64,000 nucleotides of DNA, taken from assembly GCA_900635465.1 (NCBI GenBank), contig LR134135.1, positions 3,534,001 through 3,598,000 of the forward strand, in the 5' to 3' direction. Below, one piece after another: positions 3,886-64,000 of this stretch. The stretch's first letter is position 1. Each line of letters starts with the position of its first letter. The notes under the pieces were generated by a model that ran no database searches, was not told the origin of the DNA, and saw only the letters and a program-made list of their open reading frames with translations. The DNA comes from Lelliottia amnigena (GTDB lineage: Bacteria > Pseudomonadota > Gammaproteobacteria > Enterobacterales > Enterobacteriaceae). The position numbers were made by a program, and so were the translations under genes.

Positions 3886-4001
3886 CCACCCCAGCCCTTT
3901 CCCCTGCGGGCGAGATCGAAAAGATCGCACCGACTCCCCCTCTCCGCAAAGGATGAGGGGGAAAACTGCACCGCGTATTCCTCTCCCCTGCGCGAGAGGA
4001 A
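3886..4001. repeat. degenerate GGGAGAGGG-type palindromic repeats between bglA and ygfF
   Basis: The gap between two convergent genes contains imperfect inverted repeats built on CCCCTCTCC / GGATGAGGGG and CCTCTCCCC / GCGAGAGG. They are decayed relatives of the palindrome seen intact at 18779, 25200, 47350 and 52195. They could also fold as a terminator. Confidence 0.55.
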
Positions 4002-14860: not shown

Positions 14861-15457
14861 ATGACGCAACTTCCTGAAGTTCCTGCATCTCGACAAGAAA
14901 TCCGTCAGTTTATCCGCAAACAACGTCGTGCGCTGTCCCCCGATCAACAAGCTCACTTTGCCCAACAAGCCTCGGCACGTATGATGGCCTATTCGCCCGT
15001 TGTGATGGCGCATACGGTGGCGCTGTTTTTATCGTTTGATGGTGAACTGGATACCCAACCGCTGATCGAACAACTGTGGCGCGCCGGAAAGAAAGTCTAT
15101 CTGCCCGTTTTACATCCCTTCAGCCCGGGTAATTTGCTGTTCCTGCATTATCATCCGCACAGCGAACTGGTCGTAAATCGTCTGAAAATCACTGAACCCA
15201 AACTGGATGTGCGCGATGTTTTACCGCTCAATGAACTGGATGTGCTGATTACGCCGCTGGTGGCATTCGACAGGTATGGTCAACGCCTGGGAATGGGCGG
15301 TGGATTCTACGATCGCACACTACAGAACTGGCAGCAGCATGGCCTACAGCCGGTAGGATATGCGCATGATTGTCAGGGCGTAGACAGACTTCCGGTAGAG
15401 AAATGGGATATCCCGCTGCCCGCCGTGGTCACGCCATCAAAAGTATGGGAGTGGTGA
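14861..15457 (+). CDS. fau: 5-formyltetrahydrofolate cyclo-ligase
   Basis: A 198-residue 5-formyl-THF cyclo-ligase (YgfA). It converts 5-formyltetrahydrofolate to 5,10-methenyltetrahydrofolate using ATP. The family motif G-M-G-G-G-F-Y-D-R-T is present near residue 148. The ATG at 14861 gives M-T-Q-L-P-E, 28 bp after the end of 6S RNA; a shorter start further in, nearer the E. coli annotation, is possible. It lies in the 6S RNA transcript, and its folate role parallels nearby gcvT. Confidence 0.94.
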   Translation: MTQLPEVPASRQEIRQFIRKQRRALSPDQQAHFAQQASARMMAYSPVVMAHTVALFLSFDGELDTQPLIEQLWRAGKKVYLPVLHPFSPGNLLFLHYHPHSELVVNRLKITEPKLDVRDVLPLNELDVLITPLVAFDRYGQRLGMGGGFYDRTLQNWQQHGLQPVGYAHDCQGVDRLPVEKWDIPLPAVVTPSKVWEW

Positions 15458-15460
15458 TAA

Positions 15461-15488
15461 AAAAACGGTAACGCCAGTTACCGTTTTT
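15461..15488. terminator. bidirectional terminator between fau and serA
   Basis: A perfect 12-bp stem (AAAAACGGTAAC / GTTACCGTTTTT) closes on a GCCA loop, with T-runs on both strands, between convergent genes. It shares its stem and flanking sequence with the element at 25162. Confidence 0.85.
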
Positions 15489-15534
15489 ACTGTTTGCGTC
15501 CTCTTCCGACGCAGAGAAATCAGTGTGCGGCAGA

Positions 15535-18778: not shown

Positions 18779-18804
18779 AACCCCTCTCCCGCGGGAGAGG
18801 GGTT
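18779..18804. repeat. perfect 26-bp GGGAGAGGG palindrome
   Basis: Positions 18779-18804 form an uninterrupted 26-base palindrome whose centre is CCCGCGGG, between the converging argP and yggE genes. It is an intact copy of the repeat family found throughout the window and may double as a bidirectional transcription stop. Confidence 0.75.
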
Positions 18805-25068: not shown

Positions 25069-25084
25069 TATGACTTGCGTCACA
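25069..25084. promoter_or_regulatory. candidate CRP site upstream of epd
   Basis: TATGACTTGCGTCACA matches the CRP consensus TGTGA-N6-TCACA at nine of ten core bases. It lies about 200 bp upstream of epd, where E. coli has a CRP-dependent distal promoter for this operon. Apart from this and the elements at 25162 and 25200, nothing is seen in the 391-bp epd-tktA gap. Confidence 0.55.
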
Positions 25085-25161
25085 TTTTAAATGGAATAAT
25101 TCACAACGTTTTCACACGATGGTGGAATAGCAGACACAAAAAAGCCGGCGGGGGTGAAAGT

Positions 25162-25190
25162 AAAACGGTAACCCAAAGGTTACCGTTTTT
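25162..25190. terminator. strong hairpin terminator downstream of tktA
   Basis: A perfect 12-bp stem (AAAACGGTAACC / GGTTACCGTTTT) with a four-base loop and T-runs on both strands. It lies about 75 bp after the tktA stop, beyond a palindromic repeat. Its stem is nearly the same as that at 15461. Confidence 0.8.
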
Positions 25191-25199
25191 AGTGTTTGC

Positions 25200-25238
25200 A
25201 CCCTCTCCCGTGGGAGAGGGTTGGGGTGAGGGCATCAG
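25200..25238. repeat. GGGAGAGGG palindromic repeat with TGAGGGCATCA tail
   Basis: The palindrome CCCTCTCCC-GT-GGGAGAGGG is followed by TTGGGGTGAGGGCATCA. It is nearly identical to the unit at 52195 and to the reverse complement of the unit at 47350, so it is a dispersed repeat family of about 38 bp. Confidence 0.8.
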
Positions 25239-25263
25239 TCCGCACACACCCTGTAAACCGCGA

Positions 25264-27255
25264 TTACAGCAGTTCTTTGGCTTTCGCGACAACGTTTTCA
25301 ACGGTGAAGCCGAACTCTTCAAACAGCAGCTCAGCCGGTGCAGATTCACCGAAGGTGGTCATCCCGACGATAGCGCCGTTCAGACCAACATATTTGAACC
25401 AGTAGTCAGCGATACCGGCTTCAACTGCGACGCGAGCAGTAACCGCTTTCGGCAGCACGGATTCGCGATAAGCAGCTTCCTGCTTGTCGAACGCATCGGT
25501 AGACGGCATGGAAACCACGCGCGCTTTAACGCCTTCGGCAGACAGATTTTCCCATGCAGCAACAGCCAGCTCAACTTCAGAACCGGTCGCGATGAAGATC
25601 AGCTCTGGCTGGCCAGCGCAGTCTTTCAGCACGTAACCACCGCGAGCGATGTTTGCCAGCTGCTGTTCGGTACGATCTTGCTGGGCCAGGTTCTGACGAG
25701 AAAGAATCAGCGCGGTTGGGCCGTCCTGACGCTCAACGCCATATTTCCACGCCACGGCAGATTCAACCTGATCGCATGGACGCCATGTGGACATGTTAGG
25801 CGTCACACGCAGAGAAGCCACCTGCTCAACCGGCTGGTGAGTTGGGCCATCTTCGCCCAGACCGATGGAATCATGGGTGTAAACCATCACCTGACGCTGC
25901 TTCATCAGCGCAGCCATACGCACAGCGTTACGGGCGTATTCGACGAACATCAGGAAGGTAGACGTATAAGGCAGGAAACCGCCGTGCAGGGCGATACCGT
26001 TAGCAATCGCCGTCATACCGAATTCGCGTACACCGTAATGGATGTAGTTACCGGCAGTGTCTTCGTTGATTGCTTTAGAGCCAGACCAGATCGTCAGGTT
26101 AGACGGAGCCAGGTCAGCGGAACCGCCCAGGAACTCTGGCAGCCACGGACCAAATGCTTCGATCGCATTCTGAGACGCTTTACGGCTGGCGATTTTGGAC
26201 GGATTAGCTTGCAGATTCGCGATGAATTCGTTTGCTTTGGCGTCGAAATCAGCCGGCATGTCGCCTTTCATACGGCGAGTGAATTCAGCCGCTTCCTGTG
26301 GGAAGGCTTTCGCGTAAGCAGCGAATTTCTCATTCCATGCGGACTCTTTCGCCTGGCCTGCTTCTTTAGCATCCCACTGCGCATAGATTTCTGACGGAAT
26401 TTCAAACGGAGCGTGTTTCCAGCCCAGTTTTTCACGGGTCAGCGCGATTTCAGCGTCGCCCAGCGGGGCACCATGAGAATCGTGCGTACCTTCTTTGTTT
26501 GGCGAACCGAAACCGATGATGGTTTTGCACATCAGCAGGGATGGTTTGTCAGTGACTGCGCGCGCTTCTTCTACTGCACGTTTAATGCTGTCGGCGTTAT
26601 GGCCATCAACACCACGTACCACGTGCCAGCCGTAGGCTTCGAAACGTTTAGCCGTATCGTCAGTAAACCAGCCTTCAACGTGACCATCGATAGAAATACC
26701 GTTGTCATCATAGAACGCAACCAGTTTACCCAGCTTAAGGGTACCAGCCAGAGAGCACACTTCGTGAGAGATACCTTCCATCATGCAGCCATCGCCCATG
26801 AAGGTGTAGGTAAAGTGGTCAACGATGTCGTGGCCCGGACGGTTAAACTGTGCCGCCAGCGTTTTCTCAGCAATCGCCATACCTACCGCATTCGCCACGC
26901 CCTGACCCAGTGGGCCAGTGGTGGTTTCAACGCCAGCGGTGTAACCCACTTCTGGGTGACCAGGCGTTTTAGAGTGCAGTTGACGGAAGTTTTTCAGCTC
27001 TTCAATTGGCAGCGCATAGCCAGTGAGGTGCAGCAAGCTGTAGATCAGCATAGAGCCGTGGCCGTTAGACAGCACAAAGCGGTCGCGGTCAGCCCATGAT
27101 GGGTTTTGCGGGTTGTGATTCAGGAAATCACGCCACAGGACTTCGGCAATGTCAGCCATACCCATAGGGGCGCCCGGGTGACCGGATTTGGCTTTCTGTA
27201 CTGCATCCATGCTCAGCGCACGAATAGCATTAGCAAGCTCTTTACGTGAGGACAT
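25264..27255 (-). CDS. tktA: TktA, transketolase 1
   Basis: A 663-residue thiamine-diphosphate enzyme, the E. coli length. It moves two-carbon units between sugar phosphates in the pentose phosphate pathway. The ThDP/magnesium motif G-D-G-C-M-M-E-G lies near residue 154, with the matching asparagine in Y-D-D-N-G-I-S about 30 residues later. A histidine-rich N-terminal G-H-P-G-A-P-M-G motif lies near residue 26. It sits beside epd, as in E. coli, and with rpiA gives two pentose-phosphate enzymes in the window. Confidence 0.98.
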
Positions 27256-45235: not shown

Positions 45236-45829
45236 ATGCAGAAAGTTGTTCTCGCTACCGGTAACGCCGGTAAAGTGCGCGAGCTGGCCTCGCTATTAAA
45301 TGATTTTGGCCTGGACGTCGTGGCGCAAACCGAGTTGGGCGTGGATTCCGCGGAAGAGACCGGTCTGACCTTTATCGAAAATGCGATTCTGAAAGCACGC
45401 CATGCCGCGCAGGTGACGGGCCTGCCCGCTATCGCCGATGACTCTGGTCTGGCGGTTGATGCCCTGGGCGGCGCACCGGGTATTTATTCCGCACGCTATT
45501 CCGGCGTTGATGCGACTGACCAGCAGAATCTGGAAAAACTGCTCGAAACGCTAAAAGATGTACCGGATGCGCAGCGTCAGGCGCAGTTTCACTGTGTGCT
45601 GGTGTATATGCGTCATGCCGAAGACCCAACACCGATTGTCTGCCACGGAAGCTGGCCGGGCGTGATTGCTCGCGAGTCTGCTGGCAGCGGCGGCTTTGGC
45701 TATGACCCCATTTTCTTTGTCCCGTCTGAGGACAAAACCGCGGCGGAACTAACCCGCGAAGAAAAAAGTGCGATTTCCCACCGGGGTCGCGCGTTAAAAC
45801 TGTTACTGGAAGCATTACGTAATGGCTAA
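45236..45829 (+). CDS. rdgB: RdgB, dITP/XTP pyrophosphatase
   Basis: A 197-residue house-cleaning nucleotidase of the Ham1 family, the E. coli length. It hydrolyses dITP, ITP and XTP to keep deaminated purines out of DNA. Motifs are T-G-N-A-G-K at residues 7-12, D-D-S-G-L near residue 68 and G-F-G-Y-D-P-I-F near residue 153. It overlaps hemW by eight bases. Confidence 0.97.
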
Positions 45830-46964
45830 TTTGCCACCTCTGAGTCTGTATATTCATATCCCCTGGTGCGTGCAGAAATGCCCGTACTGCGATTTCAATT
45901 CACACGCGCTGAAAGGCGAAGTGCCGCATGACGACTACGTTCAGCATCTGTTAAGCGATCTGGATGCCGACGTATCTTACGCACAGGGACGTGAAGTTAA
46001 GACCATTTTCATTGGTGGCGGGACGCCGAGCCTGCTTTCTGGCCCGGCGATGCAGACACTGCTGGATGGCGTGCGTGCGCGTCTGAATCTGGCAGCAGAT
46101 GCAGAAATTACCATGGAAGCGAATCCTGGCACCGTTGAGGCCGATCGTTTTGTCGATTACCAACGTGCCGGGGTCAACCGTATTTCCATCGGTGTGCAGA
46201 GCTTTAGCGAGCCAAAACTTAAACGTCTGGGCCGCATTCACGGGTCAGCTGAAGCGAAGCGGGCAGCGCATCTGGCAACCGGTCTTGGGCTGCGGAGCTT
46301 TAATCTTGATTTGATGCACGGCCTGCCGGATCAGTCGCTGGAAGAGGCGCTTGACGATTTGCGCCAGGCGATTGAGCTGAATCCGCCGCATCTCTCCTGG
46401 TATCAGCTCACCATTGAGCCTAATACGCTGTTTGGCTCACGTCCGCCGAAACTGCCTGATGACGATGCGCTGTGGGATATTTTCGAACAAGGGCATCAGA
46501 TTCTGACGGCGGCGGGGTATCAGCAGTACGAAACATCGGCCTATGCAAAACCAGGTTATCAGTGCCAGCATAATCTCAACTACTGGCGCTTTGGCGACTA
46601 TTTGGGGATTGGCTGTGGCGCACACGGTAAAATCACCTTCCCGGACGGACGCATTTTGCGCACCGCCAAAACGCGCCATCCGCGCGGATATATGGAAGGC
46701 CGTTACCTTGAACGCCAGCATGATGTGGAAGTGGAAGACAAACCGTTTGAGTTCTTTATGAACCGTTTCCGTTTGCTGGAACCGGCACCGCGTGCAGAGT
46801 TTGCGCGTTACACGGGCCTGCCTGAATCCGTTATTCGTCCGCAGATTGATGAGGCGCTGGCGAAAGGGTATCTGACCGAGTGCGACACGTACTGGCAGAT
46901 TACTGAACACGGGAAACTGTTCTTAAACTCCCTTCTTGAGCTGTTCCTCGCCGACGATTCCTGA
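45822..46964 (+). CDS. hemW: HemW, heme chaperone, radical SAM family
   Basis: A 380-residue HemN-like protein (E. coli 378). The radical SAM cysteines are C16, C20 and C23 in W-C-V-Q-K-C-P-Y-C, with G-G-G-T-P-S near residue 66 in the SAM-binding region. HemW lacks coproporphyrinogen oxidase activity and delivers heme to membrane targets. It is the last gene of the yggS run. Confidence 0.95.
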
Positions 46965-47027
46965 AGACAGATTCAGGATTTTGCATCCCGCTCTGCTGGC
47001 TGACCGAAAGGCTGGCAGAGTGTGGGG

Positions 47028-47366
47028 ATGGAAAAATTAAAACAACTCCGCATTGAAATGACACCTGAGGAATCACGCCTCTGGTATTTGCTCAGAGATC
47101 GCCACTTCTTTGGCTATACGTTTCGCCGCCAAATGCCGATTGGGGCATATATCGTGGATTTCGCCTGTTTTAAAGCGCGCCTGATAGTGGAACTGGATGG
47201 GGGTCAGCATCAGGATGACGTTGCGTATGATCAACGCAGATCGGCATTTTTGAATGACAATGGCTGGAAAGTGATTCGGTTCTGGAATAACGAGTTCAGA
47301 TCGAATGAAGAGGGTGTGCTAAGCGTTATTCTTGAGCACCTTCAATGCCTGATGCCCTCACCCTAA
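47028..47366 (+). CDS. DUF559 domain protein, putative Vsr/PD-(D/E)xK-type endonuclease
   Basis: A 112-residue protein with the DUF559 core: M-T-P-E-E-S-R-L-W near the start, then I-V-D-F-A-C-F and I-V-E-L-D-G-G-Q-H-Q, ending with W-x-V-I-R-F-W-N-N-E. The D, E and Q-H residues resemble the Vsr-like nuclease site. The biological role is unknown. The start is ATG 47028, with in-frame GTG 47022 as an alternative. Its last residues and stop lie inside a dispersed palindromic repeat, and three repeat copies follow. In E. coli this position holds yggM and ansB. Confidence 0.82.
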   Translation: MEKLKQLRIEMTPEESRLWYLLRDRHFFGYTFRRQMPIGAYIVDFACFKARLIVELDGGQHQDDVAYDQRRSAFLNDNGWKVIRFWNNEFRSNEEGVLSVILEHLQCLMPSP

Positions 47367-47535
47367 CCCTCTCCCACAGGGAGAGGGAACGATTTCGTCC
47401 TATCCCTGTGGGAGAGAGGGAACGCTTTCGTCATCTCTTCTGCTGGAAGGTGGGAACGCATTCACCCACTCTTTCGCGTAGAAGTGGTAAACTTTTCTCC
47501 CTCTCCATTGGGGAGAGGGCCGGGGTGAGGGGCCA
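47350..47535. repeat. cluster of three GGGAGAGGG palindromic repeats downstream of the DUF559 gene
   Basis: Three palindromes are seen: a canonical unit at 47350-47387 (TGATGCCCTCACCCTAACCC then CTCTCCCACAGGGAGAGGG), a partial one at 47399-47423 and an inverted one at 47499-47535. The canonical unit matches those at 25200 and 52195. The DUF559 stop codon TAA is supplied by the CCCTAACCC part of the first unit. Confidence 0.8.
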
Positions 47536-47549
47536 CGCGCGCAGAAATC

Positions 47550-48269
47550 TTACTTCAGCGATCCCACCAGCGCCTTCCGGCTATCTTCAAGTGTTACCAC
47601 GCGCTTACACACGTCTTTGCCAAACTTTTGGAAATCGGCTTCCTGATTTTTCCACTCATTTTGAATGGAGGTTTGCAGACCACCAAGGCTACCTAAAACG
47701 CCCTGCAGCGGGTTACCACCGCCTTTCAGAACGGCTTTCGCCCCCATCTCATTGATGCTGTCCTGCAGGATACCGCCCATCGCCTGATTTACCAGGTTTT
47801 GTCCGTCGGCACGCACCTGATCGATAGCCTTGTAGTGGAACGTCAGGCCATCGGTACGATGCTCAAGAATGCGGTTCATCTGTTCTTTCAGCTGCGCGTC
47901 CAGCTTGGTCAGGCGAGAGCGCATATTGCTATTCTCCCCCACTTCTTTCGCGATGATCTTATCCAGCGCCACGCGCCCTTTCTCTACACGGGTAAGCGCA
48001 CCTTCGTCAATCCACGGAAGCGCGGCGCGGAGATCGGCCTGATAATCTTTTGCCTGCTCGCGCTGTGCCGCGCTCAGGGTATATTGTTTGCCGTTAAACA
48101 TCACATTGCCATCAGGCGTGATGACCAGATTGCCGTTTTCGCCTTTCACCTGGACGGTTTGCGGATTCAGGATCACATCGTCGCGCGGTGTGACTTCACA
48201 TTTGTATTCCGCATGCGCCGTCAACGCGGTTGTCATCAGTGCCACAGCCAGCAGCGTTTTGTGCATCAT
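47550..48269 (-). CDS. yggN: YggN, DUF2884 periplasmic protein
   Basis: A 239-residue protein, the E. coli length, with an N-terminal signal peptide (M-M-H-K-T-L-L-A-V-A-L-M-T-T-A-L-T-A-H-A) and the DUF2884 domain. Conserved stretches are C-x-V-T-P-R-D-D-V-I and V-Q-V-K-G-E-N-G-N-L. The function is unknown. It is probably transcribed from its own promoter, since the trmB-yggL unit ends in a terminator just upstream. Confidence 0.93.
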   Translation of the reverse strand: MMHKTLLAVALMTTALTAHAEYKCEVTPRDDVILNPQTVQVKGENGNLVITPDGNVMFNGKQYTLSAAQREQAKDYQADLRAALPWIDEGALTRVEKGRVALDKIIAKEVGENSNMRSRLTKLDAQLKEQMNRILEHRTDGLTFHYKAIDQVRADGQNLVNQAMGGILQDSINEMGAKAVLKGGGNPLQGVLGSLGGLQTSIQNEWKNQEADFQKFGKDVCKRVVTLEDSRKALVGSLK

Positions 48270-51997: not shown

Positions 51998-52236
51998 ACC
52001 CAACCCTCTCGCACGCGGAGAGGGTTGCCCAGATGCCCTCCCCCTGCGCGAGAAACGGGGGTCCGATTCCCCCTCCTTGGGCGAGAAACGGGGTCCGATC
52101 CCCCTCCTTGGGCGTGAAACGGGGTCCGATTCCCCCTCCTTGGGCGAGAAACGGGGTCCGATTCCCTCTCCCTGGGCGAGAAACGGGGGTCCGATTCCCT
52201 CTCCCTGTGGGAGAGGGTTAGGGTGAGGGCATCAAA
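51998..52236. repeat. tandem array of about 32-bp repeats ending in a canonical palindromic repeat
   Basis: Between mltC and nupG, five tandem units share GCGAGAAACGGGGTCCGAT (one with GCGTGAAAC), with spacings of 33, 31, 32 and 32 bp. The array begins with a degenerate palindrome (CCCTCTCGCACGCGGAGAGGG at 52004) and ends with a canonical one (CCCTCTCCCTGTGGGAGAGGG then TTAGGGTGAGGGCATCA). The unit looks like an expanded half of the dispersed palindrome. No spacers differ, so it is not CRISPR. Confidence 0.85.
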
Positions 52237-52260
52237 CCGCACACGCCATCCATACGAAAA

Positions 52261-53685: not shown

Positions 53686-53712
53686 AAATCCCTCTCCTTA
53701 ACGGGAGAGGGA
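53686..53712. repeat. GGGAGAGGG palindrome between nupG and citG
   Basis: CCCTCTCC-TTAAC-GGGAGAGGG forms an 8-9-bp stem between the convergent nupG and citG. It is a repeat family member that probably also serves as a terminator; it runs into the citG stop. Confidence 0.65.
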
Positions 53713-54513
53713 CATTGCTCCTAACACCCATCCCACTGACAGCAAATCCGCACTGCCACCTGGACTTAAATTCCGCGTAATGAACGCCTGATCCATCTCG
53801 ATCAACGCCTCGCTATCCCAACCGTGAGTCAGTAAATTCCGTGCATAATTCTGCACATAGCGCAGCCCGTCCATTCCGCCGCGCGACACCAGATTGCTAT
53901 CCTGATTAACCGCCATCAGACGCAGAAGCAGCTCGTGAAGCGAGCCGTCCTGCCACTGCGTCAGTACGTTGCGCACCGTCGCGAACCCGCTCTCCGCTTC
54001 GCCGCGTGCGCCGGTCAGACCAAACTGCTGATATTGCCGCTCGCCTGCCGTCGACATACCGCTGCGGCCTGCAAGTTCACGCTCAACCAGCCCACGACAA
54101 ATGTTACCGATCTCACAACACAGCGTGTCGGCCGTCGCATTTCGCACGCGTCCGGCAGTGAAACAGAGCAAACCCAGCGAGAAAATCCCGCCTTTATGCG
54201 TATTTACCCCGCCCGTTGCGGCATACATCGCCTGCTCGCACGCGATGCCCATTGGGCGAATCAGACGTAGCTGCTCTGCTGCAGCTTTCTCCGCATGTTC
54301 GCTCCCCAGTTCGGCAAAACGTACAAACCAGGGGGCAATCGCCTTGATGCTGCGGACAAACAGCGCGTGATCCATATCGCGATGCGCGCCGCTATTGAGC
54401 TTATCCACCAGCCCCGGCTTGGGCGTTAATTCAAGTTCGTGCCAGAGCGCCTCTTCAGCCAGCTCCGGCACGCTGACGCAGCGCGGTTTAGTCGCGAGCA
54501 AACCAGTCATCAA
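53698..54513 (-). CDS. citG: CitG, triphosphoribosyl-dephospho-CoA synthase
   Basis: A 271-residue enzyme of the CitG/MdcB family. It makes 2'-(5''-triphosphoribosyl)-3'-dephospho-CoA from dephospho-CoA and ATP, the precursor of the citrate lyase prosthetic group. Motifs are T-P-K-P-G-L-V-D near residue 30, G-V-N-T-H-K-G-G-I-F-S-L-G-L-L near residue 102, G-L-T-G-A-R-G-E-A and R-N-L-S-P-G-G-S-A-D-L-L near the end. It overlaps citX by 26 bp and is the last gene of the citrate operon. Confidence 0.93.
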   Translation of the reverse strand: MMTGLLATKPRCVSVPELAEEALWHELELTPKPGLVDKLNSGAHRDMDHALFVRSIKAIAPWFVRFAELGSEHAEKAAAEQLRLIRPMGIACEQAMYAATGGVNTHKGGIFSLGLLCFTAGRVRNATADTLCCEIGNICRGLVERELAGRSGMSTAGERQYQQFGLTGARGEAESGFATVRNVLTQWQDGSLHELLLRLMAVNQDSNLVSRGGMDGLRYVQNYARNLLTHGWDSEALIEMDQAFITRNLSPGGSADLLSVGWVLGAMSLSR

Positions 54514-63682: not shown

Positions 63683-63699
63683 GGGTGCTGTGTGATGGT

Positions 63700-64000
63700 G
63701 CGGCGTGATCCCCTCATCCTAACCTTCTCCCATGAGGAGAAGGAACCGTCTGGAGCTGTCTTTTTCCCCTCATCCCGGCCCTCTCCCAAAGGGAGAGGGT
63801 GATAGCAGAGTGAAGGACATAATCATCTCCTCTCACAGAGGAAGAGGGGGAAAACAGAGTGAAGGAGCAAACCGTCCCCTCTCACTGAGGGTGAAGGGGA
63901 AAACAGAGTGAAGGAGCAAACCACCCCCTCTCACTGAGGGTGAAGGGGAAAACAGAGTGAAGGAGCAAACCATCCCCTCTCACAGAGGGTGAAGGGAAAA
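63700..64000. repeat. palindromic repeats followed by a 49-bp tandem array, cut by the window end
   Basis: Two palindromes (63709-63745 and 63769-63799, related to GGGAGAGGG) are followed by at least four tandem units of about 49 bp. The marker AAAACAGAGTGAAGGAGCAA starts at 63851, 63900 and 63949, and a degenerate first unit starts near 63801. Each unit has a CCCTCTCAC-TGAGGGTGAAGGGG palindrome. No gene is seen in this 300-bp stretch. Confidence 0.85.

Follow-up and report, generated by a model that had tools for sequence, protein, structure and literature searches.

A DUF559 nuclease gene of Lelliottia amnigena ends in an intrastrand-triplex repeat, and DUF559 genes are associated and covary with such repeats across bacteria

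The window analysed here is the whole stretch of 64,000 nucleotides from Lelliottia amnigena. Its open reading frame (ORF) at 47022–47366 on the plus strand, which starts with GTG at 47022 or ATG at 47028 and encodes 112–114 aa ending in ..LQCLMPSP*, was identified by profile search as a DUF559 gene (PF04480, E 2.4e-40; PF18741, REase_MTES_1575, E 6e-11). It is flanked by an ORF at 45822–46964, which we take to be hemW, and by a convergent ORF at 47550–48269, presumably a yggM-like gene. In the loci read from the home genus, the DUF559 gene lies between hemW and yggM and appears to be vertically inherited, and it is under purifying selection, with a median dN/dS of 0.11 over 204 within-type pairs that are mutually non-independent. 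The hemW–yggM gaps of G005 (L021), G019 (L182) and G031 (L188) contain foreign DNA, ending similarly in each case (..CCGGGGACATGGT.. or nearly so), that breaks either the repeat or the end of the gene; the place looks like the target of an insertion sequence. An Rfam scan of the window returned, at gathering score, the 6S RNA (SsrS, RF00013; 14650–14833, 138.5 bits) alone.

The last codons and the stop of the DUF559 gene lie inside a 38-bp repeat unit (unit 1, type A; 47350–47387, minus strand), the TAA at 47364–47366 falling between the third-strand part (47355–47363) and the hairpin (47367–47387). Read on the minus strand, unit 1 consists of the hairpin CCCTCTCCC-TGT-GGGAGAGGG with a 9-bp stem, then TTA, then the third strand GGGTGAGGG, whose end is turned toward the gene. 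It is followed by a degenerate second hairpin (TCCTATCCCTGTGGGAGAGAG, 47398–47418) and by unit 3 (type B; 47499–47532, plus strand), composed of CCCTCTCC-ATTGG-GGAGAGGG plus CCGGGGTGAGGGG, which is oriented opposite to unit 1 with its third-strand end away from the gene. The sequence-only reading had described a stop within a 38-bp unit with two more copies next to it, and this is the arrangement that we find.

Further copies are dispersed over the window. Relative to a reference unit at about 25199–25250, unit 1 is 95% alike over 39 bp and a copy at 52197–52247 (plus strand) is 90% identical over 51 bp, in agreement with the near-identical units proposed earlier at 25200 and 52195. The copies proposed at 3886, 18779, 53686 and 63700 stand only in part. 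A copy at 3887–3914 is 79% alike to the reference over 28 bp, and copies at 63698–63801 are 80–86% alike, in a cluster of degenerate copies (63713–63846) that merges into a 49-bp tandem array. The other two are only hairpins: that at 53688–53715 (CCCTCTCC-TTAAC-GGGAGAGGG) has no clear third strand, and that at 18781–18802 (CCCCTCTCCCGCGGGAGAGGGG) has no tail and may be an ordinary terminator. The reference unit itself belongs to a gene-less dispersed unit of about 92 bp (25153–25244, plus strand), made of a GGTTACC hairpin, the triplex repeat and a ATCAGNCCGCAC end. The palindrome ahead of the repeat in this composite (AAAACGGTAACC..GGTTACCGTTTTT, 25153–25200) is also seen beside a degraded copy at 15453–15516; it may be a terminator or belong to the mobile unit. 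Two tandem arrays adjoin the repeats. The 49-bp array (63779–64000; 4.6 copies) is based on a degenerate repeat hairpin and reaches the window end, and an array at 52048–52204, about 4.9 copies of a degenerate 32-bp unit (GCGAGAAACGGGGTCCGATTCCCCCTCCTTGG), abuts the canonical repeat at 52197–52247 and looks like a local amplification of repeat halves. The window copies of the repeat fold as hairpins. With up to three mismatches, CCCTCTCCCNNNGGGAGAGGG has 11 matches in the window against 0.03 expected, and the window genome (G000, one contig of 4.47 Mb) contains 92 exact hairpins of the form CCCTCTCCCN{2,8}GGGAGAGGG and none of the reversed control pattern; the repeat is therefore not a product of chance.

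The repeat is not itself new. Unit 1 agrees with the TM_ECO consensus, CCCTCNCCC-N3-6-GGGNGAGGG-N3-GGGNGAGGG, so that the window repeat is the described PIT/TM_ECO intrastrand-triplex motif. Holder et al. (2015, PMC4666352) describe TM_ECO as a G/C-rich motif present in more than 260 genomes, widespread among bacteria, with 23 copies in E. coli K-12, types A (TTA) and B (CCG), inverted A/B pairs and triplex formation in vitro. Their account of the TM_ECO sites gives no association with transposons, phages or plasmids and no transposase or integrase remnants around them; they report no mobility gene, and DUF559 is linked to the repeat here. A text search of that paper and of the Enterobacter sp. 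638 genome paper (PMC2869309) found no mention of DUF559, and no paper linking DUF559 or ycjD to these repeats was found in the open-access PMC literature. The element had been proposed as a new kind; as far as our searches reach, the novelty lies in the DUF559 link only.

A purine-motif triplex has a third strand that mirrors the purine arm, each A being faced by either A or T. We compared tails with stems in 235 of 317 hairpins, of which 129 have G-rich tails; mirror-symmetric arms, short tails and non-G-rich tails were dropped. The mirror of the arm fitted the tail better than the direct arm in 139 of the 235 asymmetric-arm hairpins, worse in 21 and equally in 75 (85, 7 and 37 for the G-rich tails). 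Shuffled tails never equalled the mirror fit (0.928 vs 0.812, 0/1000), and the preference remained with one count per distinct arm (26 vs 3, 7 equal; p 1.5e-5). The tail is thus a mirror repeat of the stem and the triplex potential is conserved, and the mirror tails extend the published triplex motif beyond CCCTCTCCC. In some repeat families a small extra hairpin, seen by eye, lies between the stem and the third strand. These observations suggest that the enzyme recognises the folded form.

The association of DUF559 with this repeat extends far beyond the window. Profile searches found PF04480 matches in 112 of 299 Pseudomonadota genomes. Weak matches in ORFs of about 1850–1990 codons (G006, G007, G050, G052, G057 and others) belong to a different DUF559-like domain class. 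From 74 genomes with a full-length match at E <1e-20 we took the best locus each, with up to 9.8 kb per side; of the 83 genomes at this threshold, nine were omitted: two of the home genus (G000, G017), one with a partial gene (G060), one with an internal stop (G227) and five beyond the matches listed (G172, G194, G209, G246, G252). Under a strict rule (perfect stem of at least 8, loop of 2–8, one pyrimidine-rich arm), 69/74 loci have a pyrimidine–purine hairpin no more than 300 bp from the DUF559 domain (53 upstream, 55 downstream, 39 on both sides), compared with 15/296 randomly positioned pseudo-domains of the same stretches. In the first 100 bp on either side of the domain, hairpin density reaches 5.95 per kb upstream and 6.62 per kb downstream; beyond 1 kb it falls to 0.06–0.16 per kb. 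Gaps adjoining DUF559 hold a hairpin in 69/117 cases, the remaining gaps of the same stretches in 50/917 (p 3e-43). ParE control loci gave 1/30 under the strict rule, that one with a different repeat kind; these loci came from 120 genomes that partly overlap the 74, some at contig ends, and the within-stretch controls are therefore weightier. When 51 paralogue stretches, taken from among the matches listed, were included under a relaxed rule, the figures were 124/126 loci against 30/296 pseudo-domains.

A separate scan, with motifs derived from DUF559 proteins resembling that of the window, yielded 80 named loci, which take in Nitrospira, Dehalococcoidia, Gastranaerophilales, Desulfobacterales, Marinimicrobia and Binatia records. 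A hairpin is present in 73/80 (62 upstream, 62 downstream, 51 on both sides), or 71/80 once L230 and L272, which have another hairpin kind, are removed. Among the seven misses, L246, L252, L279 and L292 carry a mismatched repeat of the same kind by eye, L214 and L217 meet a contig edge (in L214 inside the repeat), and L253 has none close by. No hairpin was found at L099 and L132 even under the relaxed rule, and none of this kind near L230, L253 and L272. Among the matches listed, many loci are syntenic within genera, and the count by family, made by hand, is therefore safer: the repeat association is found in 22/24. Phages contributed only three DUF559 records, all distant. The expectation that the repeat lies at the end or on the flanks of DUF559 genes more often than chance is thus borne out.

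The arrangement is frequently that of a cassette. Where hairpins lie on both sides of the gene, the nearest ones are inverted in 30/39 and direct in 9/39. The third-strand tail faces the gene in 47 vs 5 upstream (45 uncalled) and 45 vs 1 downstream (49 uncalled), and among the named loci in 31 vs 6 (23 uncalled) and 37 vs 4 (24 uncalled); a stricter tail call gave 19 inward, 0 outward, 5 direct and 14 uncalled. Gene-less far pairs displayed no orientation preference (9 inward, 10 outward, 5 direct, 11 with the partner uncalled). The stop codon lies within or past the start of the downstream hairpin at 58/95 loci and 37/65 named loci, and the fusion of gene and repeat seen in the window is therefore a general trait. 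In two Deinococcus records, DUF559 forms a compact element between 56-nt inverted repeats that contain the hairpin (98% and 95% complementary), one of which sits between paaD and paaZ. The tails of these cassettes point outward, and together with the 9/39 direct pairs this means that the geometry is not universal. A gonococcal DUF559 gene, which we take to be NGO0050 of Neisseria gonorrhoeae (3hrl), lies between direct, not inverted, repeat copies. The terminal inverted repeats of the two Deinococcus elements are like those of an insertion sequence, whereas many other loci have only inverted hairpins, and a role of the gene in mobility is presumed. The loci compared show neither a target-site duplication nor a site from which a whole cassette is cleanly absent. 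The Deinococcus terminal repeat, used as a query against the plasmid collection, disclosed no large gene-less set (2 records, 4 places), and an all-against-all locus comparison, in which 140 of 558 matches are listed, gave no recent whole-cassette transposition, the long matches inspected being syntenic places.

Enzyme and repeat also vary together. Paralogues of one genome often have different repeats, and related DUF559 proteins have related repeats. Shuffling among paralogues within genomes gave a correlation of 0.125 +- 0.071, compared with 0.368 observed (0/2000 reached it); this test kept 123/126 loci, two being without a hairpin and one having a short domain. For cross-genome loci without synteny detectable by blastn of the flanks, repeat similarity is 0.39–0.42 below 50% protein identity, 0.72 at 60–70% (n=43) and 0.86 at 70–80% (n=12). 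DUF559-adjacent repeats are closer to the dispersed repeats of their own stretch than to those of other genomes (own higher in 31/42; 0/2000 shuffles). In the home genus, repeats with a 10-bp stem make up a share of 0.17 with DUF559 allele type A (18 genomes) and 0.49 with type B (22 genomes; p 0.0013, phylogenetic regression p 0.001–0.002), with exceptions both ways; 20/60 genomes were dropped from this test, 7 untyped and 13 without an ORF by the rule used, the intact G009 among these 13.

The number of repeats tracks the gene, as had been anticipated. The repeat is present in 60/60 genomes of the home genus, with more than 100 copies in 45/60. The 46 genomes with an intact gene have a median of 139 repeats (range 42–238); in the four that lack a DUF559 match the number is about 7-fold lower (10, 11, 24 and 39). 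Remnant-only genomes have 14, 65, 126, 142, 183 and 190 repeats, and those with a partial or frameshifted gene 33, 55, 134 and 168; we infer that the repeat-rich remnant genomes represent recent gene losses. On a hemW+yggM tree the gene-less genomes are scattered, mostly beside repeat-rich sisters, and several hemW–yggM gaps show internal deletions that left the repeat behind. Phylogenetic regression of repeat count gave x0.15 for genomes with no match vs the rest (p 2e-10) and x0.43 (lambda 1) for not intact vs intact (p 3e-7). Across the phylum, at least five CCCTCTCCC hairpins occur in 54/83 DUF559 genomes (E <1e-20) vs 12/216 others, a count that covers one arm type and ignores relatedness. 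At family level, relatedness again ignored, the figures are 16/19 genomes with DUF559 vs 10/130 others, or 10/74 others by hand count when 56 genomes below 3 Mb, all copy-free, are left out. In three DUF559 genomes with 0–1 pattern copies, DUF559 is flanked by other palindromes; G113 and G232 have 57 and 32 copies without a strong DUF559 match. Association, covariation and co-loss are thus strongly supported.

The gene-less units are dispersed with sharp ends. Among 16 dispersed loci that were read, the 92-bp composite was found at about nine distinct places with nearly constant ends, and relatives carry it elsewhere. At the site orthologous to window 25080–25320, beside a gene that is presumably fbaA, relatives have either the composite or other classical-looking REP or terminator sequences. 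This is a pattern of dispersal and of presence and absence, which does not by itself name the agent. At the same site, classical-looking REPs replace the triplex repeat of the window in L316–L319 and L321–L323, and in L314, L315 and L320 the triplex repeat directly follows half of a classical REP pair, which may point to insertion of one repeat family into the other.

E. coli K-12 has a DUF559 gene of its own, ycjD (b1289, 1351407–1351760), which we reached through a protein-level plasmid search; a DNA-level search with the window gene gave no match in E. coli genomes, and the PF04480 profile gave none in one E. coli control genome. Like the window gene, ycjD has its stop codon inside a repeat hairpin, here degraded, and TM_ECO no. 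9 lies farther downstream in the ycjD–fabI gap; the repeats of K-12 are few, 23 by the count of Holder et al. (PMC4666352). YcjD is treated as a PD-(D/E)XK member in PMC1189080. Of the complete E. coli genomes, 3364/5426 contain a match over at least 80% of the 751-base stretch around ycjD. Between sapF and fabI (L401, L409–L412), either ycjD with repeats or the eefRABCD efflux operon appears, and in three eef records the efflux genes adjoin sapF.

The structure of DUF559 has a Vsr/homing-endonuclease-like fold, and its acidic residues are invariant. By its profile match, its fold and its conserved acidic motif, the protein belongs with the Vsr-like PD-(D/E)XK nucleases, as the sequence-only reading had it. 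The second-closest solved fold is the catalytic domain of the homing endonuclease I-Bth0305I (3r3p), intron-borne by its PDB name 'mobile intron protein', which has a single homing site, whereas DUF559 has dispersed repeats. VSP repair by Vsr is tied to a cytosine methyltransferase; none is found among the ORFs listed around the window gene. Both the Vsr endonuclease (1vsr, 1cw0) and Caulobacter VsrA, for which a T:G mismatch role was proposed (PMC12907096), are fold-related systems for comparison. The likeness to REP-RAYT that had been noticed holds for the arrangement: as in REP-RAYT/REPIN systems (PMC3733652), there are short palindromic interspersed repeats, inverted pairs, many gene-less copies and a gene flanked by its cognate palindromes. 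It does not hold for the components. The enzyme of REP-RAYT is a Y1/HUH transposase (PF01797), here it is PF04480 with a Vsr-like PD-(D/E)XK fold; REPs have a GTAG tag by the hairpin, which the 38-bp unit lacks, and the mirror third strand is a feature of the present repeat. By-eye comparison of the window unit with the CGTC REPs of PMC3733652 likewise revealed neither the CGTC tag nor the CCA tail.

Given that the gene usually lies beside or between copies of the repeat and that both change together, the DUF559 enzyme probably maintains or spreads the repeats. We consider it somewhat better than an even chance that they form a REP-like mobile-repeat system with a dedicated PD-(D/E)XK nuclease of this DUF559 clade; binding, cleavage and cleavage-driven spread by DUF559 are what we infer from the comparisons. 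In such a system, each member of the repeat family, a hairpin with a purine third strand, would be able to form an intrastrand triplex. When the repeat is single-stranded or extruded, DUF559 would recognise its cognate hairpin or triplex and cut beside it, and repair or strand transfer would then copy the repeat to a new, mostly intergenic place. Sometimes the entire repeat–DUF559–repeat cassette may be copied. The cassette would be the autonomous form, and the gene-less single repeats and inverted pairs would be the non-autonomous ones. In the home genus, the gene would be a fixed, vertically inherited locus that still sustains the repeat population. Its apparent vertical descent between hemW and yggM in the loci read means that the gene itself does not move there. 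A fixed gene sustaining a repeat population is also the RAYT pattern, and RAYTs are mostly single-copy and vertically inherited.

Several observations speak against a mobile-repeat system. Sequence analysis disclosed no cutting, binding or movement event and no target-site duplication; four of the six remnant genomes are repeat-rich (126, 142, 183 and 190) and two intact ones are low (42 and 54); and most TM_ECO loci were assigned in all 56 E. coli genomes of Holder et al. (PMC4666352), although some lineages have eefRABCD where others have ycjD (PMC12817139). On the same side count the gene that stays in place in the home genus, the loci lacking a hairpin, the direct pairs and outward tails, the gene-less pairs with their random orientation, and the copy-rich genomes G113 and G232. 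The main rival is a guardian enzyme that resolves or repairs the hairpins or triplexes of the repeats (or T:G mismatches), so that many repeats are tolerated only with DUF559 while spreading by other means. The Vsr-like fold and the lower repeat numbers after gene loss would fit such a protective enzyme too, yet it leaves unexplained why the gene lies between inverted cognate repeats at different places, and why 56-nt terminal inverted repeats surround it inside an operon, and we regard it as unlikely. Homing, in which DUF559 would cut cassette-free sites and repair would copy the cassette in, leaving repeats as landing-site debris, draws on the kinship with I-Bth0305I and on the compact cassette of gene plus ends. 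However, for every copy of the gene the genus has tens to hundreds of gene-less repeats, and the sharp ends of these repeats fit a mobilised unit, not debris, which makes homing distinctly improbable.

If the repeats were simply terminators or intergenic filler, a small gene in a gap would often adjoin one. The window copies do fold as hairpins, and the Enterobacter sp. 638 genome paper, which counts 100 such palindromes, noted them at gene 3' ends and suggested termination (PMC2869309). Such passive co-location is contradicted by the gap, pseudo-domain and ParE controls. Upstream copies are, moreover, as common as downstream ones, enzyme and repeat covary, and earlier work cited by Holder et al. 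(PMC4666352) saw neither promoter nor terminator activity of the motif, so that we give this explanation very little credence. Slightly less still is given to the remaining one, that RAYT/TnpA_REP enzymes, the hypothesised mobilisers of GTAG REPs (PMC3733652), move these repeats and that DUF559 is a bystander: the unit lacks GTAG, and RAYT is rejected as the mobiliser in the home genus, where PF01797 matches only 8/60 genomes (52/60 have none) and every genome has the repeat.

With DUF559, the repeats gain a candidate enzyme whose family already has a profile and includes a protein of E. coli K-12, and for which a related structure (3hrl) has been solved. As ycjD and TM_ECO occur together in K-12, the idea is directly testable in laboratory strains. 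In our judgement the chances are evenly balanced that DUF559/YcjD enzymes are the missing mobilisers of intrastrand-triplex repeats across bacteria, E. coli K-12 included, with a Vsr-like nuclease that reads the triplex and a lock-and-key co-evolution of the two. If true, this interspersed-repeat system would rely on a PD-(D/E)XK nuclease instead of an HUH transposase, and it might be a natural example of an intramolecular DNA triplex that is read by a protein. It would also offer a function for a large family that is still named as a domain of unknown function.
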